23,460 bases of DNA from Lachnospiraceae bacterium. Its GTDB lineage: Bacteria > Bacillota_A > Clostridia > Lachnospirales > Lachnospiraceae. The stretch's first letter is position 1. Every line of letters begins with the position of its first letter. Positions 1,113-23,460 of the stretch are shown here, in pieces. The stretch spans positions 1 through 23,460 of the forward strand of contig JAFOYH010000034.1 of the NCBI GenBank assembly GCA_017391465.1, in the 5' to 3' direction. Under the pieces are notes generated by a model. That model was not told the origin of the DNA. It was given only the letters and a program-made list of their open reading frames with translations, and ran no database searches. The translations under genes were made by a program, and so were the position numbers.

Positions 1113-2279
1113 TTGAAGATTTTTCATATATCCGATTTACATATCGGAAAACAGTTAAATTATTATAGTCTAAAAGAGAATCAGGAAGATATTTTAAACC
1201 AGATTATTGAACAGATGAAAGTTCATAGACCCGATGTTTTATTAATTGCAGGAGATATTTTTGATAAATCCATGCCTTCGGGGGAAGCTTATACATTATT
1301 TGATCATTTTTTAAATGATCTTTCAGACTTACAGCCGAATATACCCGTATGCATGATCTCAGGCAATCATGATTCTCCGGAACGACTCAATTATGCCAGC
1401 AGTTTTATGGAGAAACATCACATCTATGTATCGGTTATGCCTCCGGTGCGAGAAGATGAGTATATAAAAAAAGTGGTGCTGCAGGATGCGTTCGGTCCAG
1501 TCAATATTTATCTTTTGCCATTTACAAAGCCGGGATATGTGCGTCCCTTATTTAAAGATCAGGATGTGCCGGATTATGAGACTGCCATTCGTTTGCTCAT
1601 TGAACGTGAAAATATAGATGTTACTGAGAGAAATATTTTAGTATCTCATCAGTTTTATCAAAGTCAGGGTTGGGAAACGGCAACGTGTGATTCAGAGCAG
1701 GTGTTATTATCTGTCGGGGGATTGGATCGAATTGATATTGGTGTGTTGAAAGATTTTGATTATGTTGCCCTTGGTCATCTTCATGGTCCACAGAAGATTA
1801 AGAAAGAATGGATTCGATATTCTGGTTCACCTTTAAAATATTCAGTCAGCGAAGAACATCAGAATAAATCAATTACGGTGATCACGATGGAGGAAAAGGG
1901 AAAGCCGCTTCAGATGGATCAAATTATGTTAATTGCAAAACAGGATGTACGTTCTGTGCGTGGAACTTTAGATGAAGTACTTGAACAGGCAAATACGGAA
2001 AATAATCATGACTTCATTCGTGTGACTTTGACGGATGAGCATGAGCCATATCGCATGAAAGAACAGCTTCGTGAAGTCTATGATTCGGTTTTGGAAATTC
2101 ATGTGGACAATACACGAACACGAAGAAAATTGGAATTTGACATAGAAAAAACAGAAAATCTGACACCCTTTGAAGCTTTTCAGATTTTCTATGAAGATAT
2201 GAACAGAGCACCAATGTCAGAAAGTGAAGAAGAACTTATGGTATCTATTTTCAGGAAGACGATGGAGGATGGAGAATGA
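1113..2279 (+). CDS. sbcD: Exonuclease SbcCD, nuclease subunit SbcD
   Basis: Mre11-type metallophosphoesterase subunit of the SbcCD complex, which cuts DNA hairpins and protein-blocked ends in the cytosol. The phosphoesterase motifs appear in order: DLH (D8, H10), GDIFD (D48), GNHD (N85, H86, D87), SHQF (H179) and GHLH (H222, H224), all ligands of the two-metal site. The 388-residue length is normal. The start is a TTG at 1113, chosen because CGGAGG (1101-1106) sits 6 bases upstream and the family's N-terminal strand (KIFHISDLHIG) begins at once. No ATG or GTG is available at that spacing. The stop codon overlaps the sbcC start (ATGA), so the two subunits are probably translationally coupled. 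Confidence 0.95.
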   Translation: MKIFHISDLHIGKQLNYYSLKENQEDILNQIIEQMKVHRPDVLLIAGDIFDKSMPSGEAYTLFDHFLNDLSDLQPNIPVCMISGNHDSPERLNYASSFMEKHHIYVSVMPPVREDEYIKKVVLQDAFGPVNIYLLPFTKPGYVRPLFKDQDVPDYETAIRLLIERENIDVTERNILVSHQFYQSQGWETATCDSEQVLLSVGGLDRIDIGVLKDFDYVALGHLHGPQKIKKEWIRYSGSPLKYSVSEEHQNKSITVITMEEKGKPLQMDQIMLIAKQDVRSVRGTLDEVLEQANTENNHDFIRVTLTDEHEPYRMKEQLREVYDSVLEIHVDNTRTRRKLEFDIEKTENLTPFEAFQIFYEDMNRAPMSESEEELMVSIFRKTMEDGE

Positions 2280-5693: not shown

Positions 5694-7022
5694 ATGAGTG
5701 ATTATTACAATTACCACGATGAACAACAGGGAAATAATTACAGCTATTACCAATCGGATGAGGCTGCAAGAAGATCCTATTCTCCTTACGATACACCGGA
5801 ACCAAACCGAACAGAACGTAAAAAGAAAAAGGGAAGTTTTGCAGGAAAACTGGTAAAGGCTATCTGTCTGGGTCTGACATTTGGGCTTGCAGCAGGGGCA
5901 GCCTTTGCAGGGGTGACAAAGATTGCGAATTTGGGAAAAAGAAATGGAAACACAGAGAATGCAAGTAACGCTGGGATGAAGGTTAATATTGTTAAAACAT
6001 CAGACACCGATGTTCAGACCATTAATGCAACGGATGTATCAGATATTGTGGAAGAATGTATGCCATCCATCGTTGCAGTGAATACACAGGTTGTGACGAC
6101 CCAGTATTTCTTTGGACAGTCTTATTCTAAAGAAGGCAGTGGTGCAGGTTCTGGATTTTTGATCAGCGAAGCGGATGGAACATTATATGTTTTAACAAAT
6201 TATCATGTTATCCAGGATTCTACGAGTATCAGTGTGACATTTAATGATGGAAGCAAAGCGGATGCACTGGTCAGAGGTTATGATGAAAGTGCAGATATTG
6301 CGGTCATTACCGTGGATTACAGTACATTATCTGAAGAAACAAAATCCAATATAGCAGTCGCTGTTATGGGTGATTCAGATGCATTGGAAGTTGGTAATGG
6401 TGCCATTGCCATTGGTAATGCTTTGGGCTATGGTCAGTCTGTTACAACCGGTGCCATTAGTGCTGTGAATCGAGAAGTTCAATTGACGGATGGAACGGTA
6501 ACGCTTATACAGACAGATGCGGCCATTAATCCAGGAAATAGTGGTGGCGCACTGCTGAATACAAAAGGTGAAGTCATTGGTGTGAATACAGTGAAGTATT
6601 CAGATACAGATGTTGAAGGTATGGGATTTGCTATTCCGATTAACTCTGCATTAGAAACTGCGCAGGGAATCATTGATGGAAGCATTGTTCCAAAAACGGA
6701 TGAAAATACAGCTTACCTTGGAATTTCCGGTGGCACGTTGGATGAAGCTGCAGCCGAAAGCTATGGTTATCCGGCCGGAATTTATATCAGTATGGTTGAA
6801 CGAAATTCTGCAGCAGCCAGAGCTGGCTTACAGCAGGGAGACATCATTACTGGATTTAATGGAGAAACCATTTTAACAATGGAAGAACTTCAGGAAAGAC
6901 TCATGGATTGTCTGCCAGGGGATCAAATTACATTAACTGTTCAGAGACAGAACATGCGTGGCAGTTTCGCTGAGATGGAATTGAGTACCATTCTTGGTTC
7001 CAGAGCAGATGTCATGGAATAA
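5694..7022 (+). CDS. htrA: HtrA/DegP-like S1C serine protease with PDZ domain
   Basis: Membrane-anchored serine protease that degrades misfolded proteins outside the membrane. The 442-residue chain has a Tyr/Gln-rich cytosolic head (1-40), a basic patch KKKK (about 43-46), one transmembrane helix (about 52-78), a trypsin-like domain and one C-terminal PDZ domain (about 340-430). The catalytic triad is complete: H171 (NYHV), D201 (ADIAV) and S283 (GNSGG). I prefer ATG at 5694 to the upstream in-frame ATG at 5670, because GGAGGA (5681-5686) lies 7 bases before it. It is the first gene of an apparent operon: the clpX-like gene follows after 22 bases. No convincing promoter was found in the 91-base gap upstream, so read-through from the GtrA gene is possible. 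Confidence 0.92.
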   Translation: MSDYYNYHDEQQGNNYSYYQSDEAARRSYSPYDTPEPNRTERKKKKGSFAGKLVKAICLGLTFGLAAGAAFAGVTKIANLGKRNGNTENASNAGMKVNIVKTSDTDVQTINATDVSDIVEECMPSIVAVNTQVVTTQYFFGQSYSKEGSGAGSGFLISEADGTLYVLTNYHVIQDSTSISVTFNDGSKADALVRGYDESADIAVITVDYSTLSEETKSNIAVAVMGDSDALEVGNGAIAIGNALGYGQSVTTGAISAVNREVQLTDGTVTLIQTDAAINPGNSGGALLNTKGEVIGVNTVKYSDTDVEGMGFAIPINSALETAQGIIDGSIVPKTDENTAYLGISGGTLDEAAAESYGYPAGIYISMVERNSAAARAGLQQGDIITGFNGETILTMEELQERLMDCLPGDQITLTVQRQNMRGSFAEMELSTILGSRADVME

Positions 7023-7044
7023 TCATATAGAAGGAGGCAGATGG

Positions 7045-8529
7045 ATGCCAGATTACAGAGAAGTTGATGAAGATTTTAAAACTACGAAAGATAAAGATAT
7101 TATAGAGTCTCATAATGCTAAAAAAGAAGACGCAAACGCAAACATTATTGAGGATGATTCCAAGGACGATTATGAGGAAATCTGCTACATGTGTCGCAGA
7201 CCGGAAAGCATTGCCGGAAAGATGATTCACATTCCTATGGAAAATGTCTGCATGTGTATCGACTGTATGGAACGCAGTTTTAATATGATGAATAACACGC
7301 CAATTGACTATGATGAAATTATGAAAAATATGAATTTCAATATGTTTGGCGGCAATATGATGGGTGATGGCATTCCAAAAAGTCAGCGTTTGAAGAAGAA
7401 AAAGCCAAAAGAGAATCAGGAACCGCCAATTCATCTAAAAGATATTATGCGTCCTCACAAGATGAAAGAAAGTCTGGACGATTATGTGATTGGTCAGGAT
7501 TATGCAAAAAAGGTTATGTCTGTGGCTGTTTATAATCATTACAAACGTGTGGCAACCAATACGATGGATGAAATCGAAATTGAAAAGTCCAATATGCTGA
7601 TGATTGGACCAACCGGTTGCGGAAAAACCTATCTGGTGCGCACATTGGCAAAATTATTGGATGTTCCATTAGCTATTGCGGATGCCACATCTTTAACGGA
7701 AGCCGGTTATATTGGTGATGATATCGAAAGTGTTGTGTCAAAATTACTTGCTGCAGCTGGCAATGATGTTGAGAAGGCAGAACGCGGTATTATTTTTATT
7801 GATGAAATTGACAAAATTGCCAAGAAAAAGAATACCATGAGTCGTGATGTCAGCGGAGAATCCGTACAGCAAGGTCTTTTAAAACTTCTTGAAGGAAGTG
7901 ATGTGGAAGTTCCGGTAGGAGCCAGCAGTAAAAATGCTATGGTGCCACTGACAACTGTTAATACACGCAATATTTTATTTATATGCGGTGGGGCATTCCC
8001 GGATCTTGAGAATATTATTAAGTCTCGTTTGACAAAGACAACTACCATTGGTTTTGATGCTTCTTTAAGAGATGAATATGATAATGATCCAGATCTTATG
8101 AGTAAAGTAACAATTGAAGACCTTCGAGAATTTGGTATGATTCCGGAATTTATTGGACGTTTACCGGTTATTTTCAGTTTGAAGGGATTGGATGAAGAAG
8201 CACTCGTGAAGATTTTAAAAGAGCCAAAGAATGCCATTATTAAGCAGTATCAGAAATTGTTGGCATTGGACGAAGTGGATCTTCAGTTTGATGATGGAGC
8301 ACTTGCAGCCATTGCACGGCGTGCGATTCAGAAAAAAACAGGTGCCCGTGCGTTAAGATCAATTATTGAAGAATTAATGTTGGATATCATGTTCCAGGTT
8401 CCAAAAGACGATAATATTGGCCGCGTAACTATTACTGAAGATTATGTAGAAAAAACAGGCGGACCATTCATTGAGTTTAGAGGTATGTATTCACTGGAGA
8501 ATAAAAAACCTGCAGGTTACATACAATAA
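7045..8529 (+). CDS. clpX: ClpX-type AAA+ unfoldase, divergent paralogue
   Basis: AAA+ ATPase of the ClpX family, which unfolds proteins and feeds them to a partner peptidase. The 494 residues show an acidic N-terminal extension (1-44), a four-cysteine zinc domain (C47, C50, C71, C74), Walker A GPTGCGKT (188-195), pore loop GYIG (221-224), Walker B IIFIDE (249-254), the ClpP-docking loop IGF (335-337) and sensor-2 GAR (433-435). The substrate-binding RKH loop of typical ClpX is absent; the matching place reads ASSKNAM (293-299). The start at 7045 is set by AAGGAGG (7031-7037); upstream starts in this frame overlap htrA and lack such a site. Its place between htrA and a subtilase, away from clpP and tig, suggests a paralogue rather than the housekeeping ClpX. 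That rests on context only. Confidence 0.85.
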   Translation: MPDYREVDEDFKTTKDKDIIESHNAKKEDANANIIEDDSKDDYEEICYMCRRPESIAGKMIHIPMENVCMCIDCMERSFNMMNNTPIDYDEIMKNMNFNMFGGNMMGDGIPKSQRLKKKKPKENQEPPIHLKDIMRPHKMKESLDDYVIGQDYAKKVMSVAVYNHYKRVATNTMDEIEIEKSNMLMIGPTGCGKTYLVRTLAKLLDVPLAIADATSLTEAGYIGDDIESVVSKLLAAAGNDVEKAERGIIFIDEIDKIAKKKNTMSRDVSGESVQQGLLKLLEGSDVEVPVGASSKNAMVPLTTVNTRNILFICGGAFPDLENIIKSRLTKTTTIGFDASLRDEYDNDPDLMSKVTIEDLREFGMIPEFIGRLPVIFSLKGLDEEALVKILKEPKNAIIKQYQKLLALDEVDLQFDDGALAAIARRAIQKKTGARALRSIIEELMLDIMFQVPKDDNIGRVTITEDYVEKTGGPFIEFRGMYSLENKKPAGYIQ

Positions 8530-8555
8530 ACTAATAGGAATCCGGGAGTGATTTC

Positions 8556-10274
8556 ATGGCGTTGACCGAAGAACAGCGTGAGAGAAGAGATATATTACTC
8601 TCACAGGATTATGCAGATTTTCTTGTAGCATATGGCGGTAATGTTGAAGTTGCTGTGGAAAAATATCAACCCGACAGTTATGAGATTATCAATAGCGGTT
8701 TTATGGTCATCCATAAGGCTTTGTCCTTGGAAGGTATCGAAATGCTGGATGATTATCCTTATAATCTCATTCCTGAGGTTATGGGATTACTGGATACAAC
8801 CAGTATGGAACAAAGTGGCATTTTGCCTGTGCATTATCGTCCGGGATCCGGATATCTTGGACAAGGCGTTCTTATTGGTGTCATTGATACGGGGATTGAT
8901 TTTACCCATCCGGTTTTTCGCAATTCCAATGGGACGACACGTATTCGTTCAATTTGGGATCAAACCATTCAATCTGAGAATATTCCGGAAAGATTTCCTT
9001 ATGGGACCTTATATACAGAGGAAGAATTAAATCAGGCATTGGCATCCGCCGATCCTTTTGAAATTGTTCCAAGCCGTGACTTTGAAGGACATGGAACATT
9101 TATGGCAGGAATCATGGCGGGTAGTGAAGATCCAGAGAATGATTTTGTGGGAGCAGCACCGGAAAGCAGCATTGCAGTTGTGAAATTAAAACCGGCAAAA
9201 GGTTATTTAAGAGAGTATTATGTTTTACCTGAAGAAGTGGTTGCTTTTCAGGAAACGGATGTATTTATGGCGATTCAGCATTTGATTAATGAAGCAGTAC
9301 GTTACCAGATGCCCCTGGTTTTATGTTTGGGTATTGGGAATACATTAAATAGTCATGAGGGAACATCAAATTTAAGTCAGTATTTGAACGCAATCAATAA
9401 TCTGACGGGTGTGTGTGTAGTGCTTGCCGCAGGTAATGAACTTGGAAGAGCCCATCATTATTCTGGTTTTGTGGCAGAAAGAGATGCCAGTGATACAGTT
9501 GAATTAAAAGTTGGTGAACAGGAGAGGGGCTTTCAGATGGAAATCTGGGGCAGCCTCTCCGATGTGTTTTCTGTAGAAATTATTTCTCCAGAAGGTGAAA
9601 GGATTACACGAGGTCAATCGAGTGGCGGCCAGTCGCTGCGTGTTCGATTGCTATTTGAGGATACAGAGATTTACATTTCCAATAAATCGGCAGGACTTAC
9701 GAGTGGACGTTTTCTTATGGTTATACAACTTCGAAATCCGACACCTGGAATATGGACATTTCGGATTTATGGAGAAAGAATCATTAATGGAAACTTTGAT
9801 ATCTGGCTTCCGATGGAAAAATTTATGAATGCGGATACAGTTTTTTTGAATCCAGATCCAGACATCACGTTGACGTCTGTGTCAACCACATCATCAACGG
9901 TGACAGTGGCCAACTATAATCATTATAATGACAGCCTGTATGTTCGTTCAAGTCGGGGATATACATCGTCAGGGATTATAAAACCGGATGTGGCGGCTCC
10001 AGGGGTAGGCGTTTTTGGGCCGATACCTGGCGGACGGTATGAAAATCGAAGCGGTTCCAGTATTTCCGCAGCCCATGCAGCTGGTGCAGCAGCAATTTTA
10101 TTTGAGTGGGGGCTTCTAAATGCTATGATTATCAATATGGATGGCAGTGATGTGCGACGAATGCTTATTCTTGGATCAGATCAGAAAGAAGGTGTTTTAT
10201 TTCCAAATAAAGGATGGGGTTATGGAGCGATGAATTTGCAAAATACCTTTGAAACTTTACGTTTGGTGAGGTAA
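8556..10274 (+). CDS. Subtilisin-like S8 protease, Csp-like
   Basis: Serine endopeptidase of the subtilase clan, 572 residues, with no signal peptide or membrane helix, so cytosolic or packaged rather than secreted by Sec. The N-terminal 95 residues resemble a prodomain. The triad appears complete: D111 (VIDTG), H179 (GHGT) and S502 (GSSISAA). A long insert of beta-rich sequence (about 300-450) lies between His and Ser, like the jellyroll domain of clostridial CspB. The Ser motif lacks the proline of classic subtilases (GTSMATP becomes GSSISAA), again as in the Csp group. In Clostridium, Csp proteases activate the spore cortex hydrolase SleC. Here the neighbours are quality-control genes, so a germination role is unproven. 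The site GGGAG (about 8544-8548) precedes the ATG. Spacing to the clpX-like gene is 26 bases. Confidence 0.85.
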   Translation: MALTEEQRERRDILLSQDYADFLVAYGGNVEVAVEKYQPDSYEIINSGFMVIHKALSLEGIEMLDDYPYNLIPEVMGLLDTTSMEQSGILPVHYRPGSGYLGQGVLIGVIDTGIDFTHPVFRNSNGTTRIRSIWDQTIQSENIPERFPYGTLYTEEELNQALASADPFEIVPSRDFEGHGTFMAGIMAGSEDPENDFVGAAPESSIAVVKLKPAKGYLREYYVLPEEVVAFQETDVFMAIQHLINEAVRYQMPLVLCLGIGNTLNSHEGTSNLSQYLNAINNLTGVCVVLAAGNELGRAHHYSGFVAERDASDTVELKVGEQERGFQMEIWGSLSDVFSVEIISPEGERITRGQSSGGQSLRVRLLFEDTEIYISNKSAGLTSGRFLMVIQLRNPTPGIWTFRIYGERIINGNFDIWLPMEKFMNADTVFLNPDPDITLTSVSTTSSTVTVANYNHYNDSLYVRSSRGYTSSGIIKPDVAAPGVGVFGPIPGGRYENRSGSSISAAHAAGAAAILFEWGLLNAMIINMDGSDVRRMLILGSDQKEGVLFPNKGWGYGAMNLQNTFETLRLVR

Positions 10275-12735: not shown

Positions 12736-13389
12736 ATGAAATTTTTTATTGACACAGCGAAAGTAGAAGATATTAAAAAAGCTAATGATATGGGTGTTAT
12801 CTGTGGTGTTACAACAAACCCATCTTTAATCGCAAAAGAAGGACGTGTTTTTGAAGAAGTTATCGCAGAAATTGCTTCCATCGTTGATGGACCAATCAGT
12901 GGCGAAGTTAAAGCAACAACTGTAGATGCAGAAGGCATGATTGCAGAAGGTCGTGAAATTGCTAAAATCCATCCAAATATGGTTGTAAAGATTCCTATGA
13001 CTGTTGAAGGTTTAAAAGCTTGTAAAGCTTTAACAGCAGAGGGCATCAAAACAAATGTTACATTGATTTTCACAGCAAATCAGGCATTGCTTGCAGCTAG
13101 AGCTGGTGCAACATATGTATCTCCATTCCTTGGCAGATTAGATGATATCTCTACAAATGGTGTTCAGTTAATTCGTGATATCGCTGATATGTTTGCTGTA
13201 GCAGGTATTGAAACAGAAATTATCGCAGCAAGTGTTCGTCACCCAATGCACGTTACAGAATGTGCACTTGCCGGTGCTGATATTGCAACTGTTCCTTACA
13301 ATGTAATCGAACAGATGACAAAACACCCATTAACAGATCAGGGTATTGCTAAATTCCAGGCAGACTACAAAGCTGTATTTGGTGAATAA
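12736..13389 (+). CDS. tal: Transaldolase, short TalC/Fsa subfamily
   Basis: Schiff-base aldolase of the 217-residue TalC/Fsa subfamily, working in the non-oxidative pentose phosphate pathway. It moves a dihydroxyacetone unit between sugar phosphates. The lysine forming the Schiff base is K85 (VVKIPMT), and the N-terminal motifs FIDTA and TTNPSL are intact. At residue 131 (SPFLGRLDD) it has Phe. E. coli fructose-6-phosphate aldolase has Tyr at this place and true transaldolases have Phe, so transaldolase activity is the better guess, although automatic pipelines often call this family Fsa. A strong AGGAGG (12722-12727) precedes the ATG. Promoter, ribosome site, terminator and frequent GGT, GCT, GTT and ACA codons suggest high expression. 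It is transcribed alone. Confidence 0.93.
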
Positions 13390-13414
13390 TTCAAATGAAA
13401 CTTAAGATAAAATG

Positions 13415-13438
13415 GCGGGCTTTAAAGCCCGCTTTTTT
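13415..13438 (+). terminator. Intrinsic terminator after the transaldolase gene
   Basis: The palindrome GCGGGCTTTAAAGCCCGC (13415-13432) is followed by six T residues. It is GC-rich, perfect and 25 bases after the stop codon. Confidence 0.93.
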
Positions 13439-13502
13439 ATGCGATTGGAAATCCTAATGGTTTTTTAAAATTTGGTTTTTGTGTATTTAGGATGTTCGTG
13501 TA

Positions 13503-13531
13503 TTGTGTTTTGAAAGAAAATTCGATATAAT
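13503..13531 (+). promoter_or_regulatory. Candidate promoter of xpaC-telA
   Basis: A perfect TATAAT (13526-13531) lies 17 bases after TTGTGT (13503-13508). The -35 is weak, but the same hexamer is found at the candidate sbcDC promoter. The expected transcript start is near 13538, 40 bases before the xpaC ATG. Confidence 0.5.
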
Positions 13532-13577
13532 TTAGATTAGTTTCTGATTAATTATAATATAGTAATGAGGAATGAGA

Positions 13578-14765
13578 ATGAAGAGTAAAGACTTTTATGA
13601 AATCGGAGAAGAACTTCAAAAAATTGTTCAAACAGCGATTGATTCAAATAATTTTAAAGAATTAAATGAGACGATTCGAACAACAATCAATCATGCGGTA
13701 GAAAGCATTAAAGAAGGTGTGAAAACCAGTCAGATATCCAAAGGAAAGAATGAAGAGATTCCAAACATAGATGGGAATAAAAAAAGAGAGATCAAGGCTT
13801 TAGAGTCTCGATATTTTACGGCACGGCCAACTGGTAATCTACTGGGAGGTGTCATGGTGTTTTTCGGGTTTAGTACAGCGGTAATATTAGCTATTGTTTT
13901 GATTGGTTTGTTCATATTAGATATGGTGTTGGAAGGTATTTCTCTTTTGATCGTTCCAATGATTGTGTTGAGTATATTCATTATACTACTGTTATTTATG
14001 GGTGTTAAAGGACAGATCATGCGGGCGCGTGTGAAGCGTTTTAAAAAATACCGAAGAATACTGGAAGGTCGAGAATTCTGCAGTATTGAAGAATTGTCCG
14101 GGAATATTGGGAAGTCATATGATTATGTCATAAAAGATTTATATCGTATGATTGATTTAAAATGGTTTTTACAGGGACATATTGATGCACAGGAGAAGCA
14201 TCTGATCATCACGGATAAGATGTATGAACAATATACATTAGCCATGGAAAGCTTAAAACAGCGCCAGAAAAAGGCTAAAGAAGAGGCTGAAAAAATGGCT
14301 GATCCAAAATATACGGAAGAAGTGCGTCAGATGCTTTTGGAAGGTAAGCGTTTTGTTGATCATATCCGTGAATGCAATGATGCTATTCCGGGAATTGAGA
14401 TTTCAGAAAAGATGTCTCGTTTGGAATTGATTGTCTCCAGACTTTTTGCACAAGTGGAAAAAAATCCTTCTGTGGCATCGGAAATGCATCAGTTTATGAC
14501 CTATTATCTGCCAACAACCGAAAAACTTTTAGATGCATATCGGGAATTGGATGTACAGCCAGTACAGGGGCAGAATATCATCGAAACAAAAAAAGAGATT
14601 GAAGTTACATTGGATACATTAAATCAGGCATTTGAGAAACTTTTAGACAATTTTTACAGAGATATGGCATGGGATGTGACAACAGATATTTCTGTTCTGA
14701 ATACCATGCTGGCAAAAGAAGGACTGACAGATGATGCCATGACTATGGAGAGCAAAGCACAGTAG
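13578..14765 (+). CDS. xpaC: XpaC-family membrane protein
   Basis: A 395-residue protein with two adjacent transmembrane helices (about 88-113 and 121-143). The N-terminal 85 residues are soluble and polar. After the membrane pair comes a winged-helix-like stretch (about 158-210, containing EELSGNIGKSYDYVIKDL), then a long helical C-terminal region. This matches the XpaC family (PF10112), named for 5-bromo-4-chloroindolyl phosphate hydrolysis in Bacillus, where its biochemical role is still unclear. The partner is telA, 14 bases downstream; the pair is conserved in Bacillus (xpaC-yaaN) and supports the call. I prefer ATG at 13578 to the ATG at 13572 because GAGG (13567-13570) is 7 bases from it. 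The pair likely acts at the cell envelope, by family. Confidence 0.8.
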   Translation: MKSKDFYEIGEELQKIVQTAIDSNNFKELNETIRTTINHAVESIKEGVKTSQISKGKNEEIPNIDGNKKREIKALESRYFTARPTGNLLGGVMVFFGFSTAVILAIVLIGLFILDMVLEGISLLIVPMIVLSIFIILLLFMGVKGQIMRARVKRFKKYRRILEGREFCSIEELSGNIGKSYDYVIKDLYRMIDLKWFLQGHIDAQEKHLIITDKMYEQYTLAMESLKQRQKKAKEEAEKMADPKYTEEVRQMLLEGKRFVDHIRECNDAIPGIEISEKMSRLELIVSRLFAQVEKNPSVASEMHQFMTYYLPTTEKLLDAYRELDVQPVQGQNIIETKKEIEVTLDTLNQAFEKLLDNFYRDMAWDVTTDISVLNTMLAKEGLTDDAMTMESKAQ

Positions 14766-14779
14766 TGAGGAGAATGATT

Positions 14780-15934
14780 ATGAGTGATCCGTTTAATGAA
14801 TTTAACATGACACCAACATTGGTTTTTGACGATATGCCAATCATTGAGGAAGAGAAAAAAGAAGTTGTGGAAGTTTCTGAGGAAAAACCAAAGCCATTGG
14901 ATGATTCCATGCTGAATGACGATGAAAAGGCGATGGTAGACCGTTTTGTTCAGCAGATTGATCTGACCAATACGAATGCCGTTTTGCATTATGGTGCAGG
15001 TGTTCAGAAAAAGATGGCTGATTTTTCAGAAACTGCTCTTGAAAATGTAAGATCTAAAGATCTTGGTGAAGTTGGAGATATGCTCAGCAATGTTGTTGTT
15101 GAACTGAAAAGTATTGATGCAGATGAAGAGGAAAAGAAAGGATTTTTTGGAAACCTTTTTAAGAAAACAGAGAATAAACTGACAACCATGAAAGCAAAAT
15201 ATGCAAAGGCAGAAGATAATGTGATGCAGATTACGAAAGCTTTGGAATCCCATCAGGTTGTTTTGTTAAAAGACATTGCCGTTCTGGATAAAATGTATGA
15301 ATTAAATTTGAGTTATTTTAAAGAGCTTTCTATGTATATTCTGGCTGGAAAGAAGAAACTTGAACAGGTTCGAAGTGAAGAGCTGGCAGAACTTGTGGCA
15401 AAGGCAGAGGCTACAGGTCTTGCGGAAGATGCACAGGCAGCCAAAGATATGGAAGGCTTATGTCAAAGATTTGAAAAGAAAATTCATGATCTCGAATTGA
15501 CACGCATGATTTCTATTCAGACAGCACCTCAGATTCGTCTTGTCCAGAATAGTAATACGATGATGGTTGAAAAGATTCAGTCTACGGTCGTGAATACGAT
15601 TCCGCTTTGGAAGAGTCAGATGGTTCTTGCCCTTGGTGTGGAACATTCTAATCAGGCAGCCAGAGCACAGCAGCAAGTCGCAGACATGACCAATGAACTT
15701 CTTAAAAAGAATGCGGAGACACTTAAGATGGCATCTATCGAAACCGCAAAAGCATCGGAACGCGGCGTTGTTGATATTGAGACATTGAAACAGACCAATG
15801 CTTCATTGATCTCCACGTTGGATGAAATTATGAAGATTCAGACGGAAGGTCGCGAAAAACGTCTGGTTGCAGAACATGAACTTCGTCAGATGGAAGATGA
15901 TATTAAGAATAAATTATTGGAAATTCGTAAATAA
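14780..15934 (+). CDS. telA: TelA/KlaA-family toxic-anion resistance protein
   Basis: A 384-residue soluble, almost wholly helical protein of the TelA family (PF05816; B. subtilis YaaN). Plasmid members were linked to tellurite resistance, while chromosomal Firmicutes members are tied to envelope stress; the molecular activity is not settled. Family features include an acidic N-terminal segment, the GFFGNLFKK segment in the middle, and the conserved stretch around MISIQTAPQIRLVQN and VVNTIPLWKSQM in the C-terminal half. I chose ATG at 14780, 7 bases after GAGGAG (14767-14772), over GTG 14765 and ATG 14774, which overlap or touch that site. It shares a transcript with xpaC and ends before a strong terminator. 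Confidence 0.88.
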   Translation: MSDPFNEFNMTPTLVFDDMPIIEEEKKEVVEVSEEKPKPLDDSMLNDDEKAMVDRFVQQIDLTNTNAVLHYGAGVQKKMADFSETALENVRSKDLGEVGDMLSNVVVELKSIDADEEEKKGFFGNLFKKTENKLTTMKAKYAKAEDNVMQITKALESHQVVLLKDIAVLDKMYELNLSYFKELSMYILAGKKKLEQVRSEELAELVAKAEATGLAEDAQAAKDMEGLCQRFEKKIHDLELTRMISIQTAPQIRLVQNSNTMMVEKIQSTVVNTIPLWKSQMVLALGVEHSNQAARAQQQVADMTNELLKKNAETLKMASIETAKASERGVVDIETLKQTNASLISTLDEIMKIQTEGREKRLVAEHELRQMEDDIKNKLLEIRK

Positions 15935-15947
15935 ATGAACATTAAAC

Positions 15948-15976
15948 GCCCTGCCTGTTCAGGCAGGGCTGTTTTT
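15948..15976 (+). terminator. Intrinsic terminator after telA
   Basis: A GC-rich stem, GCCCTGCCT (15948-15956) with AGGCAGGGC (15961-15969), has a 4-base loop and is followed by GCTG-free T-tract TTTTT (15972-15976, after CTG). It lies 13 bases past the telA stop and insulates uvrA from xpaC-telA. Confidence 0.9.
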
Positions 15977-16036
15977 CCACTATAGAGATTATCTATGGAT
16001 TGAAACATTGTGAATGATGTTACAGAAAGGAAAATT

Positions 16037-18886
16037 ATGGCAAAAGATTATATTAAGATTCGAGGTGCAAAAGAGCATAATTTAAAGGGAATCGATATCG
16101 ATATTCCAAGAAATGAGCTGGTTGTTTTAACAGGTCTTTCCGGTTCAGGTAAATCTTCTCTGGCCTTTGATACCATTTATGCCGAAGGTCAAAGACGTTA
16201 CATGGAATCTTTATCCTCTTATGCGCGTCAATTCCTTGGACAAATGGAAAAACCGGATGTGGAAAGCATTTCTGGTCTTCCGCCAGCGATTTCTATCGAT
16301 CAGAAATCGACCAACCGAAATCCGCGTTCTACAGTTGGTACGGTAACGGAGATTTATGACTATCTGCGTCTTCTTTATGCACGTATTGGTATTCCACATT
16401 GTCCGAAATGTGGCAAAGTAATAAGAAAACAGACGGTTGATCAGATGGTGGATACGGTCCTTGATTTGCCGGAACGTACCAAAATTCAACTCCTTGCACC
16501 CGTTGTTCGCGGACGTAAAGGTGAGCATGTAAAGCTTTTGGAACAGGCTAAAAAGAGCGGATATGTCCGTGTTATGATTGATGGCAATCTTTATGATCTG
16601 TCTGAAGAAATTAAATTGGAAAAGAATAAAAAACATAATATCGAAATAGTTGTTGACCGAATTGCAGTGAAGCCGGGAATTGAAAAGCGATTAACGGATT
16701 CCATTGAAACGACTATGAAATTATCCGAAGGCCTGGTTGTTGTTGATGTCATTGGCGGAGAGCCTTTGACATTCAGCCAGAGTTTTTCCTGTCCGGATTG
16801 TGGGGTTAGTTTAGATGAAATTGAACCAAGAAGTTTCTCCTTCAACAATCCATTTGGTGCATGTCCAACCTGTAAAGGTCTGGGATTTAAGATGGAATTT
16901 TCCGAAGAACTTTTGATCCCGGATACGACGCTTAGCCTTAATGAAGGGTGTATTGTGGGTATGGGATGGCAATCTGCAAGTTCGAATGGCAGTTTTACCA
17001 ATGCTATCTTAAAAGGAATGGCGGAACACTATGGTTTTTCACTGGACACGCCATTTGGAGATTATCCAAAAAAAATCCATGATCTTTTGATCTACGGAAC
17101 CAATGGTGAATCATTTAAAGTCTATTATAAAGGCATGCGTGGTGAAGGTGTTTATGATGTGGCTTTCGAAGGTCTTATTCGAAATATGGAGCGTCGTTAT
17201 CGTGAAACCGGTTCAGAGATTACACGTCAGGAATATGAAAAATATATGATGATCACACCCTGTAATGAATGTGAAGGCAAGCGATTAAAAAGGGAATCTC
17301 TTGCGGTGACTATTTCGGATAAAAATATTGCAGAGATTACAGAACTTTCCATCGTTGAATTGTTGAAATTTATGAATGAACTGCAATTGTCTGAACATCA
17401 GACCATGATCGGACAGCAGATTTTGAAAGAAATAAAGGCTCGTTTAGGGTTTCTTGTGAATGTAGGTCTGGACTATCTCATGCTGGCACGTTCCACAGGC
17501 ACTCTGTCCGGTGGAGAAGCTCAGCGTATTCGTCTGGCAACTCAGATTGGTTCGGGTCTTGTCGGCGTTGCATATATTCTGGATGAGCCAAGCATTGGGC
17601 TTCACCAAAAAGATAATGATAAACTTTTGAAGGCTTTGAAAGATTTGAGAGATCTTGGAAATAGTCTGATTGTGGTGGAACATGATGAAGATACCATGTT
17701 AGAAGCGGACTATGTGGTGGATATTGGTCCTGGTGCTGGCGAACATGGTGGTGAAGTGGTGGCAAAGGGAACGCCTAAAGAAATTATGAGAAGTCGCAAG
17801 TCCATCACCGCAGCTTATCTTTCCGGTAAAAAACGAATTCCTGTTCCGAAAGAACGTCGTCAGCCAAATGGAAAATTGACCATTGTTGGTGCTCAGGAAA
17901 ATAACCTGAAAAACATTGATGTAGAGATTCCGCTTGGTGTATTTACGTGTGTCACAGGTGTTTCCGGTTCCGGAAAGAGTTCTCTTGTTAATGAGATTTT
18001 GTATAAACGACTGGTAAGAGATTTAAATCACTCACGAACATCACGTCCGGGCAAACATAAAGAACTAATGGGTGTGGAACAGCTTGATAAAGTCATCAAT
18101 ATTGATCAGTCGCCAATTGGTCGTACGCCACGTTCCAATCCGGCAACGTATACGGGTGTCTTTGACATGATCCGTGATCTTTTTGCTTCCACAGTGGATG
18201 CCAAAGAGCGTGGTTATAAAAAAGGTCGTTTCAGCTTTAATGTTAAGGGTGGCCGATGTGAGGCTTGTTCCGGGGACGGCATCATCAAGATTGAAATGCA
18301 TTTCTTATCCGATGTTTATGTACCATGTGAAGTTTGTCAGGGAAAACGTTATAATCGAGAAACATTGGAAGTTAAATATAAAGGGAAGAATATTTATGAT
18401 GTATTGAATATGACGGTTGAAGAGGCACTTTCTTTCTTTGAACACGTGCCATCCATTCGTCGTAAGATTGAAACATTGAATGATGTAGGGCTTTCCTATG
18501 TGCGTCTTGGACAGCCATCGACCACATTATCGGGTGGAGAAGCTCAGCGTGTAAAACTTGCCACAGAGCTTAGTCGTCGAAGTACGGGGAAGACTATTTA
18601 TATCCTGGACGAACCAACAACAGGTCTCCATTTTGCAGATGTGCATAAACTCATCGAGATTCTTCATCGTCTCACGGATGGTGGTAATACGGTTCTTGTC
18701 ATTGAACATAATCTGGACGTGATCAAGACAGCCGATTATATCATTGATATTGGACCGGATGGCGGTGACCGTGGCGGAACAGTGATCGCACAGGGAACTC
18801 CGGAAGAAGTCGCCGAATCCGATGTGTCTTATACAGGGAAATATATTAAAAAATATTTAGAAAGAGATAAAAATATATCTCAGTAA
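16037..18886 (+). CDS. uvrA: Excinuclease ABC subunit A
   Basis: Damage-recognition ATPase of nucleotide excision repair, which loads UvrB at lesions. The 949-residue length is normal. It has two ABC ATPase halves: Walker A GLSGSGKS (33-40) and GVSGSGKS (641-648), two signatures LSGGEAQR, and two Walker B motifs ([10 protein letters not shown] and [10 protein letters not shown]). Zinc modules are seen at C252/C255 with C276/C279 and at C741/C744 with C764/C767. I chose ATG at 16037 because AGAAAGG (about 16024-16030) lies 6 bases upstream and the family usually starts just before [10 protein letters not shown]; the open frame extends 9 codons further up without support. No LexA-type box was seen upstream. 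uvrB is not adjacent in this window. Confidence 0.97.
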
Positions 18887-18970: not shown

Positions 18971-19090
18971 ATGCCAAAAAAGTTCAGTGCTTTTTCTTTT
19001 GCTAGAAAAGGGACTTTTTTACAAATTTGCAAATTGTTTTTATATAATTCAAGGAAGAACAGAAGGGTTTTAGGAGGTGAAAAAGCCTAG
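18971..19090 (+). CDS. Possible 39-residue basic small protein
   Basis: ATG at 18971 is preceded at 7 bases by GAGG (18960-18963) and opens a 39-codon frame ending in TAG. The product is basic (many Lys and Arg, including SRKNRR) with a short hydrophobic stretch (FLQICKLFLY). It lies 45 bases after a good extended -10 promoter. I recognise no family and an open frame of this size can occur by chance, so this is a candidate only. Its first third also forms a hairpin in the DNA. Confidence 0.2.
   Translation: MPKKFSAFSFARKGTFLQICKLFLYNSRKNRRVLGGEKA
18976..19020 (+). terminator. Possible weak terminator or RNA hairpin
   Basis: AAAAAAGTTC (18976-18985) pairs with GGACTTTTTT including one G-T pair (19011-19020). 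Inside, CTTTT (18996-19000) pairs with AAAAG (19006-19010) around a 5-base loop, leaving a 10-base bulge. The T-run belongs to the stem. It could end uvrA transcripts or a short RNA from the 18921 promoter, but it is AT-rich and of modest strength. Confidence 0.3.
19018..19048 (+). promoter_or_regulatory. Palindrome within a possible promoter
   Basis: TTTACA (19018-19023) and TATAAT (19043-19048) lie 19 bases apart, a poor spacing. The spacer holds the perfect 12-base palindrome AATTTGCAAATT (19024-19035). A palindrome between -35 and -10 is a usual place for a repressor site. AT-rich DNA makes such palindromes fairly common, so this is tentative. Confidence 0.25.
19072..19080 (+). promoter_or_regulatory. 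Full-length Shine-Dalgarno without an evident gene
   Basis: AGGAGGTGA is a complete match to the 3' end of 16S rRNA, stronger than any site before the annotated genes. No ATG follows at normal distance. The nearest start is TTG at 19091, 10 bases on. The 597-residue gene that starts at 19168 has no good site of its own. Confidence 0.45.
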
Positions 19091-19171
19091 TTGTTGCTTT
19101 ACTGTCAGAATATTCGGTGGTATAATTTTATATTATATAACGATTTTAGAATGGATAAGTGGATAAAATGA
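19091..19171 (+). CDS. Possible 26-residue leader peptide
   Basis: TTG at 19091 follows a perfect AGGAGGTGA by 10 bases and directly follows the TAG of the upstream 39-codon frame. The frame runs 26 codons and ends in a TGA that overlaps the ATG of the next gene (ATGA at 19168-19171). This would allow translational coupling. Against it: the spacing is long, the start codon is rare, and a promoter for the next gene lies inside the frame. Chance is a serious alternative. Confidence 0.17.
   Translation: MLLYCQNIRWYNFILYNDFRMDKWIK
19098..19126 (+). promoter_or_regulatory. Promoter of the Hsp70-like three-gene operon
   Basis: TTTACT (19098-19103), a 17-base spacer and TGGTATAAT (19118-19126), again a perfect extended -10. 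Expected start near 19133, about 35 bases before the ATG at 19168. Confidence 0.62.
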
Positions 19172-20961
19172 CAAAATTCGACTCTCAAAATGGATGGATA
19201 CAAATTGTGTTTGCGAATGAGGAAGATTCCTATGTTCTTCCAAGTATGATAAGCGTAAATTATCAACGCTTTCTTTTTTACTGTCTAAAAAAGGCTGGAT
19301 ATGAAGCTGTTTATTTCTGGGGAGACAATGATTCGAAATACGAATTGTTCTTTATGGACAATGAGTCTGCTCAGTATTATGAAAAAGTTCGTCCGAAAGG
19401 AGCACTTGAAAGAATTTTGGGATCATCAGATTCTGTGATAAAAAATGAAGAATATAAATTGATATCGGTGAGAATTTCCAATGAAAATATCATGGAGCAG
19501 ATCGTGTATGAAATTTTAAAAGGCAAGAAAAAAACAGCACTGGTTATTCCGATGAAAGTATTTGATGCATTCTTTTCAAAAGTCGATCGTGCGAATACAC
19601 TTGTCCAAAAATATAAAGAACAAAAGTCGAATAAAAACCTGTTATTGATCACTGCTTCGGTACGTGCGGAAGACAGCAATAAATACATCATTCGTGAGAA
19701 TGGTATTCTTTCAAAACTTTTTGAAGAAGTTCGACAAGCAGTTATTCCAAGCAAAGAAAGCAACATTTATGAATCTCTGCAGATGAATATGGGTGATAAA
19801 TCTACTTATTTAAATGATTTAAACAGAGAGATGATTCGTAATGTTGTTCGAAAACAGATGATTTTATATTCTGAAACAGAGATGAATATTTCTTCAGATA
19901 TGATGGAACGGATTGCAATGGTTTATGAATGGTATTATCAGTCCAGAAAGTTCAGGGAGAATACACCGATCATGTTGCCGGAGAATAAGAAACGGGAATT
20001 AAAGGTCATTGAAAAGAGTCTTTCAAATATGCGAACATTTACAACTATCTATACATGGATTGAGGACACAGGGGACTGGAATTCTTCGGAAGGGTTCAGA
20101 GCTTATCTGAAAAATATGTATCCAAAAGATGCAGAACAATGTTTCATTTACACAGATAATTTCCTCTTGAGACTTTGGGAACAGATTATTATTCCGGAAA
20201 GTATGCTCAACATGTATCAAAAGTCCTGGAAACGAAAGATAGAAGGTCTTACAGAACGTCTTAGAGCAGTCATCCTAAGGAATGACGAAGATCTGGATAA
20301 GGTGAATTTTGATACGTGTATGGAACAGATGAAAAAAAGTGTTAAAGATCAGAATGCAGATTCACTTCGACATGCCATGAACAGTGTGGAATTTTTACTG
20401 GATAATGTTTATGACAAAGAGGCAGCTTATCGGGAAATCTGGCCGTTTTATCAGGAACTTTTCGAATTATCCAATGAAATTAATAAGTTGAAATTAGAAG
20501 TTGAAGATAACCAGCACAGGATGAATGAGCTGGAAATCAAGTTTCGCCAATATGATGAAAAGTATATGCAAAGTAAGCAGATGCCGGGCATTACAGATGC
20601 TGAACTGGAAATCATGGTGAAGAAGATTCTTCAGTGTGATGAAGAGCGAACGATGATTGAGCATGTGAAAATTCTTAAAGAAAATCAGATTCATCAGTAT
20701 GAAGACGTCATAGAGACCATTGAACAGGCAATACAAAGTGCAAGAGGGGACGGTATTGCCAATGTTCAGGGAGTTTATGAACAGGCGATTACGATGCAAA
20801 ACAAAATGCTTGATCAGAGTTTCCAGACCATCAAAGAGGTGGAAAAAATCAAACAGAGTCATCCGGATTTCAAGGAAACAACTGGTATGAGTAAGAGTAG
20901 TTCGCTTGAAGAACTGGAAGATCAATATCGTGTTTTAGCGGCACGAATGCAGAAATTATGA
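19168..20961 (+). CDS. Unknown 597-residue protein beside Hsp70-like ATPase
   Basis: I do not recognise a named family. The N-terminal 190 residues alternate strands and helices; TALVIPMKVFDAFF (from 123) and NLLLITASVRAEDS (157-170) look like the Walker B and sensor-1 strands of an AAA+ domain, but there is no Walker A loop and no acidic pair after the first strand. A degenerate, non-hydrolysing AAA-like fold is my inference. The middle (200-420) is helical. From about 430 to the end the chain is charged and coiled-coil-like. No signal peptide or membrane helix is seen. ATG at 19168 is preferred to GTG at 19159; both have only weak ribosome sites (GTGGAT). The Hsp70-like gene follows after 17 bases, so the two are very probably co-transcribed. 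Confidence 0.8.
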   Translation: MTKFDSQNGWIQIVFANEEDSYVLPSMISVNYQRFLFYCLKKAGYEAVYFWGDNDSKYELFFMDNESAQYYEKVRPKGALERILGSSDSVIKNEEYKLISVRISNENIMEQIVYEILKGKKKTALVIPMKVFDAFFSKVDRANTLVQKYKEQKSNKNLLLITASVRAEDSNKYIIRENGILSKLFEEVRQAVIPSKESNIYESLQMNMGDKSTYLNDLNREMIRNVVRKQMILYSETEMNISSDMMERIAMVYEWYYQSRKFRENTPIMLPENKKRELKVIEKSLSNMRTFTTIYTWIEDTGDWNSSEGFRAYLKNMYPKDAEQCFIYTDNFLLRLWEQIIIPESMLNMYQKSWKRKIEGLTERLRAVILRNDEDLDKVNFDTCMEQMKKSVKDQNADSLRHAMNSVEFLLDNVYDKEAAYREIWPFYQELFELSNEINKLKLEVEDNQHRMNELEIKFRQYDEKYMQSKQMPGITDAELEIMVKKILQCDEERTMIEHVKILKENQIHQYEDVIETIEQAIQSARGDGIANVQGVYEQAITMQNKMLDQSFQTIKEVEKIKQSHPDFKETTGMSKSSSLEELEDQYRVLAARMQKL

Positions 20962-20978
20962 TAATGGAGTAAGAAAAA

Positions 20979-22688
20979 ATGCTTTGTATTGGGGTAGATT
21001 TTGGAAGTACATATACGACGGTCTCGGTTTATCAGGAAGAGACAGGAAAACTGGAAGCGCAGACGTTATCTGAAGGCGGAACACCGTTTATACCGTCTGT
21101 GGTTTCCGTTTCGAAGGGGCAGATCAGTGTTGGTCGTGAAGCGAAAATGATGTCTATGATGGGGAAAAAAGGCATTCAAAATTTTCGAGCATTTAAGATG
21201 ATGTTGGCTGAAGAAAATGAGGAGGTTTTAACTGATCGTGGATTTACCGCAACATATACACCGGAACATGTCACAGCAGATTTTCTGGAAAACATTTTAA
21301 AACAAGTATTGGATAATATCGGTGAGACAAAAATAGATCATCTTGTTTTGGGTGTTCCGGAAATCTGGAACAGCACATTAACAACCATTGATGGAAGAAG
21401 CCGATTAAGAGATATCTGCAGACGTTTTTCATTTGTTGAAAAGAGCGGTGTTCAGGTGGTCAGTGAACCGGCTGCAGCCAGTGCATTTTTTGCCTATAAT
21501 TTTCGTCAGATGGTCGGTGACAATTTTGATGGAAAGATTTTACTTGTGGATTATGGCGGCGGCACATTAGATATTACACTGAATGAGGTCGATGTTCGAC
21601 CGGACAAAAATGGTCAGGAAGGTATGGAGATTCGTATTCTGTATCGTACAGGTGCCGGCGAAAATGAACAGCGTCAGATTGGTAAAGCAAGTATTGTATA
21701 TATGGAATCCTTATTGGAATCAGCTATTCATCAGGAATTTCCAAATATGAAGATTGAACATGATGTGCATTTTTATCGTGCTCTGGATGGTTTGGAAGTA
21801 CAGCTTCAGGAATGCACAAACATCATTAAGACAATTTTTGATGATTATGGAACAGATCCGGAGGACCTTTCTGAAGATGAAATGGATGAAGAAGATTACA
21901 TCTTTACGATGATTCCATATCGAGGAATGTTCATTAATATTTCCTATCAGTTAATGGTTCAAGTCTATGATCAGATTATTCGCGGTGTTTTTGATGAAAA
22001 GATGGAAGAAGTTATCCAATATATGAAAGAACGGAATATCGATTATATGAACCGCAATGATCAGACGTTTAAAATTGTCCTGGTTGGTGGATTTGGCAAT
22101 TATTATCTGGTTAAGAAGCAGATGACAGATAAATTTAAGTTCAGCAGTACAGACGAACGTCAGAAAAATATTATTATGAAACGCGAAGATTGTGAAAAAG
22201 CGATTTCGCTTGGAGCAGCTTTACTTGCATCTAATGTTCTTCGTATTCGTAATACAGCTCCGTATTCTATCGGAATTCGCGTCAGAGATGAAGAACGAAT
22301 CAGTCTTACATATGGCCTTCGTTATAATCAGGATATTGAGTTTAATAAAATTTATATGCAAAATGATGTTTATGGGAATCCGGTTGTTATGGTTTCTTTG
22401 ACAGGTGACATCAATGCTTTTATTATCAATTTAAGAGATGATGACCGCTATGCCATGGAAATGTATCCAAAGGAAGCCATAAGAAAACGATTGAAGCAGG
22501 CAATTACGAACACAGATGGAACTGCGGTTGTTGGATTTTCATTGGATTCCTCTGGAGTGATCAGTATTCATGTGTATGATTATGATATATTTACCGGAAA
22601 GTTCGGAACAAAGGGAAATGTCATCGAATTGACGAATTTTAGAGAGTTATTCGATATGCAGACAGTGAAGAAGGTGTATAAAGAATGA
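20979..22688 (+). CDS. Hsp70-like ATPase without a recognisable lid
   Basis: Actin-fold ATPase of the Hsp70 superfamily, 569 residues. Phosphate-1 GVDFGSTYTT (5-14), a lysine at the DnaK K70 place (K73), connect-1 SEPAAASAFF with E163, phosphate-2 VDYGGGTLDI (190-199, T196) and the adenosine motif LVGGFG (368-373) are all present, so ATP binding and hydrolysis are likely. The linker, VLLLDVTP in DnaK, reads VLRIRNTAP here (420-428). A beta-sandwich-like region follows (about 429-569). The chain then stops, leaving no room for the helical lid. An acidic insert (EDLSEDEMDEEDY) sits in the nucleotide domain. It is therefore not housekeeping DnaK, and no grpE or dnaJ is nearby. GGAG (20966-20969) is 9 bases upstream. 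Its stop overlaps the next gene's ATG. Confidence 0.9.
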   Translation: MLCIGVDFGSTYTTVSVYQEETGKLEAQTLSEGGTPFIPSVVSVSKGQISVGREAKMMSMMGKKGIQNFRAFKMMLAEENEEVLTDRGFTATYTPEHVTADFLENILKQVLDNIGETKIDHLVLGVPEIWNSTLTTIDGRSRLRDICRRFSFVEKSGVQVVSEPAAASAFFAYNFRQMVGDNFDGKILLVDYGGGTLDITLNEVDVRPDKNGQEGMEIRILYRTGAGENEQRQIGKASIVYMESLLESAIHQEFPNMKIEHDVHFYRALDGLEVQLQECTNIIKTIFDDYGTDPEDLSEDEMDEEDYIFTMIPYRGMFINISYQLMVQVYDQIIRGVFDEKMEEVIQYMKERNIDYMNRNDQTFKIVLVGGFGNYYLVKKQMTDKFKFSSTDERQKNIIMKREDCEKAISLGAALLASNVLRIRNTAPYSIGIRVRDEERISLTYGLRYNQDIEFNKIYMQNDVYGNPVVMVSLTGDINAFIINLRDDDRYAMEMYPKEAIRKRLKQAITNTDGTAVVGFSLDSSGVISIHVYDYDIFTGKFGTKGNVIELTNFRELFDMQTVKKVYKE

Positions 22689-23460
22689 TTGAGTTTGGAC
22701 GAAGCAAAGATTCGCTTGAAGCATTACAATCAAAGTCCAGTGTGACTCTGGAGGATGTTTTAGGTGTCTTTATCGATTTATGTGAAGATGTTAAAGGTCA
22801 GGGTTGTTCTGTGGATGCGCTTGAGATTGAAGATTCGGATCGATTGTTGGCGAATCTGTCACGAAGCGGACGTATACTGTTGAAAATAATGAAGAAAAAA
22901 TCGGATCAGATTGACATTATGGATGCAGCAGATCGTCTTAAACGCCAGGAAGAACAGATTTCGGAAAAGACGGAAGAGATTGATGAAAAAGCAAAAACAT
23001 TAATCACAGCAAATGAGCAGTTGGACGCTAAAATTACTATTTATGAAAAGAAAAAATCCAAGTATGATCTTCAGATGGATGAAGTAAATAAAAAACACAA
23101 ATATTTTGAAAAGCTTTCATCCGAATGTGAACGCATAGAAAGCCTGATTAATGAGATGAATACGGTTTCCATTGATCCTTTGGAAACGCAGATTGAAGAT
23201 CTAAAGAAATACTATGAGGTGAGAAAAGAACACCTGGAACATTTACAAGGTCTTTTAAAATCAGAACAAAAGAAATATGCTGAACAGTCAAGTCTGTTTG
23301 AGCAGAATAAAGCTGCAAAAGACCAGATGGTTCAGAAGATCAACATTCTTGAGGAAACGATTCGCAGTCAGAATCAGGAAATTCTTAAACTTACAGAAAG
23401 TAAACAGATAAAAGCTGAAACAGTTCAGGAACTTTTGGATAGACAGAATCAGCTTGATAA
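22685..23460 (+). CDS. Coiled-coil protein, 3' end outside window
   Basis: Open frame from ATG 22685, overlapping the Hsp70-like stop (ATGA), to the window edge without a stop; at least 258 residues. The first 70 residues look like a small folded domain (SVTLEDVLGVFIDLCEDVKGQG and similar). From about 75 onward the chain is a long Glu/Lys/Gln-rich coiled coil with heptad-like spacing. No signal peptide or membrane helix is visible so far. I recognise no family. The four-base overlap points to translational coupling and suggests that the product is needed in fixed proportion to the ATPase, perhaps as scaffold or client. The C-terminal part, which may hold the informative domain, is not visible. 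Confidence 0.85.
   Translation, partial: MIEFGRSKDSLEALQSKSSVTLEDVLGVFIDLCEDVKGQGCSVDALEIEDSDRLLANLSRSGRILLKIMKKKSDQIDIMDAADRLKRQEEQISEKTEEIDEKAKTLITANEQLDAKITIYEKKKSKYDLQMDEVNKKHKYFEKLSSECERIESLINEMNTVSIDPLETQIEDLKKYYEVRKEHLEHLQGLLKSEQKKYAEQSSLFEQNKAAKDQMVQKINILEETIRSQNQEILKLTESKQIKAETVQELLDRQNQLD

Follow-up and report, generated by a model that had tools for sequence, protein, structure and literature searches.

What might an Hsp70-like ATPase be for, when its gene is packed between one for a protein of no named family and one for a coiled-coil protein? This arrangement closes the window analysed here, a stretch of 23,460 nt from a Lachnospiraceae bacterium (contig JAFOYH010000034.1 of assembly GCA_017391465.1), whose end at position 23460 cuts off the third gene. 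A sequence-only reading had proposed that the three products (P1, the Hsp70-like protein and the coiled-coil protein C) make up a dedicated chaperone-like machine with the Hsp70 as its switch. Comparison with relatives gives a wider answer: the trio is the front end of an operon of about eight to ten genes, rarely found, in gut bacteria, and the operon may encode a new kind of ATP-driven protein-handling machine.

The neighbourhood survey behind this answer took in the best 80 of 157 confirmed loci across Clostridia, the closest half, found by the Hsp70 alone and with genes assigned by homology-weighted picking of open reading frames (ORFs). Along one strand the recurrent order runs P1, Hsp70, coiled coil, a Zn-ribbon protein (Z), two helical proteins called here 5 and 6, a motor of the Cdc48/Vps4 class of AAA proteins (ATPases associated with diverse cellular activities) and a second, degenerate AAA protein. 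P1 was recovered in 74 of the 80 loci, the coiled coil in 72, the Zn-ribbon protein in 67, protein 5 in 63, protein 6 in 62, the motor in 56 and the second AAA protein in 48; many of these loci end at contig ends, and the motor counted is the AAA-cluster gene directly after protein 6, others being uncounted, among them minus-strand ones in loci L040 and L047. Where at least 9 kb lay beyond the first Hsp70, proteins 5, 6 and the motor were found in 47 of 51 loci. The 581 genes labelled as core share a strand, which for the two AAA genes was a condition of their selection, and most are less than 60 bases apart. The window's own third gene shows kinship with its counterparts in other loci (phmmer E as low as 1e-15), and tree distances for Hsp70, P1 and motor correlate with one another (r 0.79-0.86 over 53 loci, those with two Hsp70 genes left out) far above the shuffle maximum of 0.25. 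Because the pair of P1 and Hsp70 and the order of the genes recur in dozens of loci, the arrangement of the trio goes beyond chance: the three genes are indeed kept together, as had been supposed, but only as the first part of a longer operon. Hsp70 is a common family with frequent paralogs, which would favour an ordinary spare copy lying beside unrelated genes; the genes' conserved order on a single strand, their co-inheritance and a dedicated Hsp70 clade set apart by invariant residues contradict that explanation, and we consider it scarcely credible.

By its sequence, the central protein belongs to the Hsp70 superfamily, since it carries the actin-type nucleotide motifs (phosphate 1, phosphate 2 and adenosine) that mark that superfamily, and the description of an Hsp70-family ATPase with intact nucleotide motifs is borne out by family-wide counts (Table 1). 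Of the candidates scored in the Hsp70 search, 613 proteins reached E <= 0.001. When 27 of these were aligned with the window's protein, 28 sequences in all, the nucleotide motifs proved to be kept alongside many residues that are the clade's own. The nearest solved structure for the family profile is a DnaK chain in PDB (E 1.9e-14). Comparison with the substrate-binding beta domain and lid yielded one weak collinear stretch, to DnaK 453-479 (0.5 bits), and a length of about 560 residues leaves little room for a helical lid. The usual Hsp70 partners had been reported missing, and this stands in part: a crude pattern saw no J-domain gene adjoining the operon in the 80 loci or the window, while GrpE was not scanned by profile. 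The sole match to the J-domain pattern, an 805-residue protein some genes from the core in locus L007, resembles by eye a tRNA synthetase subunit. Two loci (L014 9992-15887 and L037 9992-20347) each hold two Hsp70 copies of the clade, one followed by a Zn-ribbon gene and the other preceded by P1.

The partners of the Hsp70 are of two sorts, AAA-like proteins and proteins that resemble little else. In the copies scanned, P1, the coiled coil, the Zn-ribbon protein, 5 and 6 fell into no named family beyond coiled-coil cross-matches. P1 had been called unrecognised, and no family fits it in either Pfam (best E 0.054) or NCBIfam (none); a large protein search listed 11 clusters, its own included. 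It is not featureless, however: its model (pLDDT 85.9) suggests an AAA-like fold that lacks a P-loop, joined to a coiled coil. The Walker A pattern occurs in 0 of 74 P1 genes, the window's included, in 8 of 48 second AAA genes and in 55 of 56 motors. Judged from its model, P1 is probably a pseudo-ATPase of AAA fold whose tail is a coiled coil. Kinship between P1 and the motor was sought by profile comparison and rejected, no relation being found. The motor itself is certainly a classical AAA protein (PF00004, E 5.5e-31), with one AAA domain and an N-terminal helical domain; it matches the CDC48 model at E 4.9e-38 and the CdvC model at E 4.5e-32, both far under the curated cut-offs, and also the defence ATPase IetA (E 1.8e-26) and TRIP13. 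Directly upstream of it, protein 6 has a basic first half (44 of 45 members) and an acidic second half (45 of 45). Protein 5 was considered as a relative of protein 6 and rejected (hhalign 0.6 and 0.3 in two comparisons; 7.4 for the c12 variant of 5 against 6), as was its identity with TelA, which is not among the matches shown for 36 members (the best 25 of 147 Pfam families).

Beyond this core, the neighbours vary. Adjoining some operons are genes for proteins that share a tag at the N-terminus, made up of a Zn ribbon and, after it, an aromatic motif (alignment A10, 18 rows), and that comprise RCC1 propellers, Sel1 repeats (Sel1/TPR) and DUF285/LRR proteins; other neighbours contain kinase-like parts. 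Under a strict cut-off, 15 of the 80 loci contain tagged proteins, 26 in all, and none of the window's own genes shows the tag. Across 21 Hsp70-bearing whole genomes, 25 strong tag matches (E <= 1e-10) fall in 8 genomes, 17 of them on the operon's own contig and 8 elsewhere, and at E <= 1e-4 a match is present in 11 of the 21. Five of these genomes (G001, G005, G781, G783 and G789) had supplied the seeds for the tag; among the other 16, strong matches occur in three (G002, G787 and G792), two of which have arrays of six and four genes. When 200 genomes of one family were searched, strong matches appeared only in the carriers G001 and G002, with weak ones (about 1e-5) in the carrier G003 and in three genomes without an Hsp70 match; in a second family of 300 genomes the Hsp70 occurs in 4, and the tag (E <= 1e-8) in one of these, a carrier and seed, and in 0 of the 296 others. 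Per genome, at most 34 candidates were scored in the first of these controls and 23 in the second, as opposed to every candidate in the panel of 21; the carriers in the controls kept all their matches. The link between tag and Hsp70 is specific, though far from universal, and the tag provides a simple sequence marker for finding partners. Runs of four and six consecutive tagged repeat genes were observed in two carrier genomes (L102 1028-9058 and L103 161-9221), the former off the operon's contig. Closely spaced with core genes are also members of the HerA family, in 19 of the 80 loci, and of the BrxL family, in 6; one copy of the former matches DndH's C-terminal HerA portion (E 1e-187), and the one copy scanned of the latter was identified as BrxL. 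In locus L018 a gene of 1742 residues (13065-18293), combining DUF4011, a helicase and an MTES_1575 nuclease, sits within the operon, after the coiled-coil gene and before that for protein 5.

What, then, would such an assembly do? Given that its genes are kept together, that none of the systems compared matches it and that no J-domain gene adjoins it in the crude test, a dedicated Hsp70 machine is a sensible reading, and to that extent the original proposal survives; its choice of the Hsp70 as switch does not survive as stated, for relatives encode further downstream a classical AAA ATPase, the likely motor, which makes the Hsp70 one of two ATPases and not the only switch. We put at a little short of an even chance that the operon encodes a dedicated, ATP-driven Hsp70/AAA protein-remodelling machine with interchangeable tagged partners, possibly serving defence. 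Composition, order, motif states, co-inheritance and the association with the tag were all read from relatives, and on that footing the steps of the machine might be as follows. The single intact AAA protein would form a motor ring with two pseudo-ATPase partners, P1, in which the Walker A pattern is absent throughout, and the second AAA protein, in which it is absent from most copies, and the Hsp70-like protein would deliver or hold the substrate, as DnaK does for ClpB. The coiled coil, 5 and 6 could be a scaffold, or else a self-encoded assembly that is the substrate, built and taken apart in turn. The tagged repeat proteins would likely act as interchangeable sensors or clients that set specificity, and HerA or BrxL in some operons suggests a coupling to DNA handling there, probably in conflict with invaders. 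As far as the excerpts consulted describe DnaK-ClpB disaggregation, the likeness lies in an Hsp70 beside an AAA ring with, presumably, the same division of labour; unlike that pair, the operon employs a Cdc48/Vps4-class protein with one AAA domain rather than an Hsp100, shows no DnaJ-type gene by the crude pattern and adds further core proteins of no named family. Should the operon work in this way, some gut Clostridia would own a dedicated Hsp70-AAA machine whose specificity is perhaps set by tagged repeat proteins, and it would offer a testable handle on whether bacteria have Vps4-driven polymer machines and on the roles of Hsp70 homologs in multi-gene conflict systems.

The placing of protein 6 beside a motor of this class invites a second interpretation, in which 6 (and perhaps 5) would form membrane filaments like those of the endosomal sorting complex required for transport (ESCRT-III), the motor would act as Vps4 and the Hsp70 would aid assembly or disassembly. 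Like ESCRT-III/Vps4 and its counterpart CdvB/CdvC, the operon sets a Vps4/Cdc48-type AAA protein next to a small helical protein of split charge, and the predicted structure of protein 6 retrieves CdvB and Snf7-type chains. In the excerpted part of PMC11237479, Vps4-like AAA genes are described as having reached bacteria by transfer, snf7 being displaced, and a two-AAA protein is reported in company with the PspA of bacteria. Profiles tell another story. Over 8 carrier genomes, neither Snf7 (PF03357) nor MIT (PF04212) gave anything over the cut-off, nor any match up to E 10 in protein 6 and the motor, respectively; the weak Snf7 match that G002 shows on its operon contig belongs to the coiled-coil gene. 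Among the Pfam matches shown, Snf7 is absent for 45 members of protein 6 (best 25 of 62 families) and MIT for 34 motors (best 25 of 115), and the motor's N-terminus alone retrieves no MIT chain in PDB. PspA compared with protein 6 reaches an hhalign probability of 0.2, below the 30 it reaches with the coiled-coil family. In the same structure lists for protein 6, whose model is of middling confidence (pLDDT 73), BAR domains, TssK and designed bundles equal or outscore the ESCRT chains, and for the motor the CDC48 model outscores CdvC. A viral fold library offered protein 6 nothing better than E 0.5. Since the Snf7, MIT and PspA profiles fail and BAR domains or designed bundles score equally well, we do not class the system as ESCRT, and consider such a machine improbable. 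Its most elaborate form, with an Hsp70 of its own, a Vps4-type motor with two pseudo-AAA partners, polymers of 5 and 6 that are built and stripped, and swappable tagged RCC1, Sel1 or LRR proteins as sensors or cargo receptors, is likewise doubtful, and slightly more so.

Where the operon occurs bears on a third possibility, that of anti-phage or anti-plasmid defence, with the tagged repeat proteins sensing an invader and the Hsp70/AAA core triggering or executing the response. The operon is sporadic. Surveys that scored only a few candidates per genome found P1 in 1 of 391 genomes of a class sample, this being the centre genome itself, the Hsp70 clade in 7 of 397 and 4 of 300 family genomes, centres included, and the window's P1 in 1 of 195 relatives of G787, namely G787. 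Accessory systems for conflict or stress typically show such patchiness together with co-inheritance. Defence would also account for the HerA and BrxL genes near the core, the helicase-nuclease gene within the L018 operon, the kinases and repeat arrays among the neighbours and the motor's likeness to IetA and TRIP13, and published defence systems with Hsp70 homologs exist, at least in the excerpted account of coiled-coil nuclease tandem (CoCoNuT) systems (PMC11090510). Against it, what PADLOC offers for the trio amounts to weak cross-matches to coiled coils and nucleotide-binding domains, its matches to the motor reflect the shared AAA domain, and protein 6 draws one weak row (HerA, E 1.5e-4); the core representatives scanned include no nuclease or toxin, and, at the thresholds applied, neither viral contigs nor plasmids yielded a relative of the Hsp70. 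We regard this defence reading as rather unlikely.

Among assemblies already described, type III CoCoNuT and the GTPase-centred HSP70 conflict systems are the nearest that we found, going by excerpts of their descriptions. The former, as excerpted (PMC11090510), likewise unites in one large operon an Hsp70-like protein, coiled coils, a Zn ribbon, CDC48-like or HerA/FtsK ATPases and kinases; it is defined, however, by an McrB-like GTPase and McrC (DUF2357), neither of which was found among the operon's core representatives scanned, and the Walker A-like motifs of its Hsp70 are reported there as degenerate, whereas those for ATP are intact in the operon's Hsp70. The latter, in the text excerpted from PMC7159879, also combine an HSP70 with Zn ribbons and repeat proteins in an NTPase system of several genes, but these DO-GTPase/GAP1 systems centre on a TRAFAC GTPase and GAP1, with a GrpE-bearing HSP70 subset, while the operon has an AAA motor, and its scanned core representatives include no GTPase. 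With bacteriophage exclusion (BREX) the operon shares the occasional BrxL, and BrxC, PglX and PglZ are not among its scanned core representatives; with DndFGH it shares the DndH-like HerA, and scans of the core proteins turned up none of the remaining components that define that system. The HerA/FtsK capture systems of PMC12839542 and PMC10853773, as far as excerpted, have only the optional HerA in common with it, and the term 'hsp70' occurs in neither text. None of the characterised systems compared matches the operon, and no description of it was found in the open-access PubMed Central (PMC) literature, subscription papers and supplements lying outside the scope, so that its novelty is provisional.

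The sequence-only reading had also suggested an envelope or polymer structure as the target, that is, a chaperone machine assembling an envelope or extracellular polymer. The presence in 16 of the 80 operons of a small membrane-like protein (about 157 residues, hydrophobic by eye) might speak for this, as would coiled-coil and helical partners compatible with polymer assembly. The core families, on the other side, include no consistent envelope-biosynthesis gene, the tagged neighbours begin with a Zn ribbon and by eye have no obvious signal peptide, and the recurring company of tagged RCC1, LRR and Sel1 proteins, kinases, HerA and BrxL suggests an intracellular role in sensing or conflict instead. 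The envelope target gains no particular support, and we hold it to be very unlikely.

Within the window, the ORF positions given earlier were reproduced for all three genes, as was their tight packing, with 17 bases (20962-20978) between P1 and Hsp70 and an ATGA overlap (22685-22688) between Hsp70 and the coiled-coil gene. P1 is taken to start at the ATG at 19168, giving 597 residues, with an in-frame GTG at 19159 as the alternative; most homologs' starts align with the ATG. The 'one good promoter' first proposed for the trio is a consensus match and well placed, yet it remains putative, because such matches are no commoner here than in shuffled DNA (14 sites, against 16.2 +/- 4.0 in shuffles). 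Read by eye, the region 19066-19167 has a string resembling a ribosome site, AGGAGGTG, but it stands ahead of the promoter-like site and not in front of P1; the start of P1 itself shows just a weak ribosome site.

Table 1. Positions of the trio, its motifs and the candidate promoter in the window.
Feature	Position	Strand	Basis
Promoter-like site, TTTACT-17-TATAAT, TG before second hexamer	19098..19126	+	Consensus match only, 10/12
P1, 597 aa: AAA-like fold without Walker A (about residues 1-330), coiled-coil tail (residues 419-564)	19168..20961	+	Model, fold matches, Walker A pattern
Long-helix (coiled-coil) part of P1, residues 419-564	20422..20859	+	Secondary structure of model
Hsp70-like ATPase, 569 aa	20979..22688	+	PF00012 E 1e-11, residues 4-204
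Hsp70 phosphate-1 motif GVDFGSTYT	20991..21017	+	Alignment; pattern in 76/83 family members
Hsp70 phosphate-2 motif DYGGGTLD	21549..21572	+	Alignment; pattern in 83/83 family members
Hsp70 adenosine motif GGF	22086..22094	+	Alignment; pattern in 81/83 family members
Coiled-coil protein C, truncated by window end; first 70-90 residues best conserved	22685..23460	+	Homolog comparison

The rest of the window holds genes of other kinds. Just upstream of uvrA and the trio, a Halogen_Hydrol (XpaC) gene (PF10112, E 4.2e-16) adjoins a TelA gene (PF05816, E 8.6e-128) at 13572-15934. The region 6994-10274 contains an AAA gene of Clp type, weakly matching the ClpX zinc finger, and after it a subtilase gene, a pairing reminiscent of those of IetAS type, and at 1113-5128 stand tandem SbcD-like and SbcC-like genes, an ordinary DNA repair pair.
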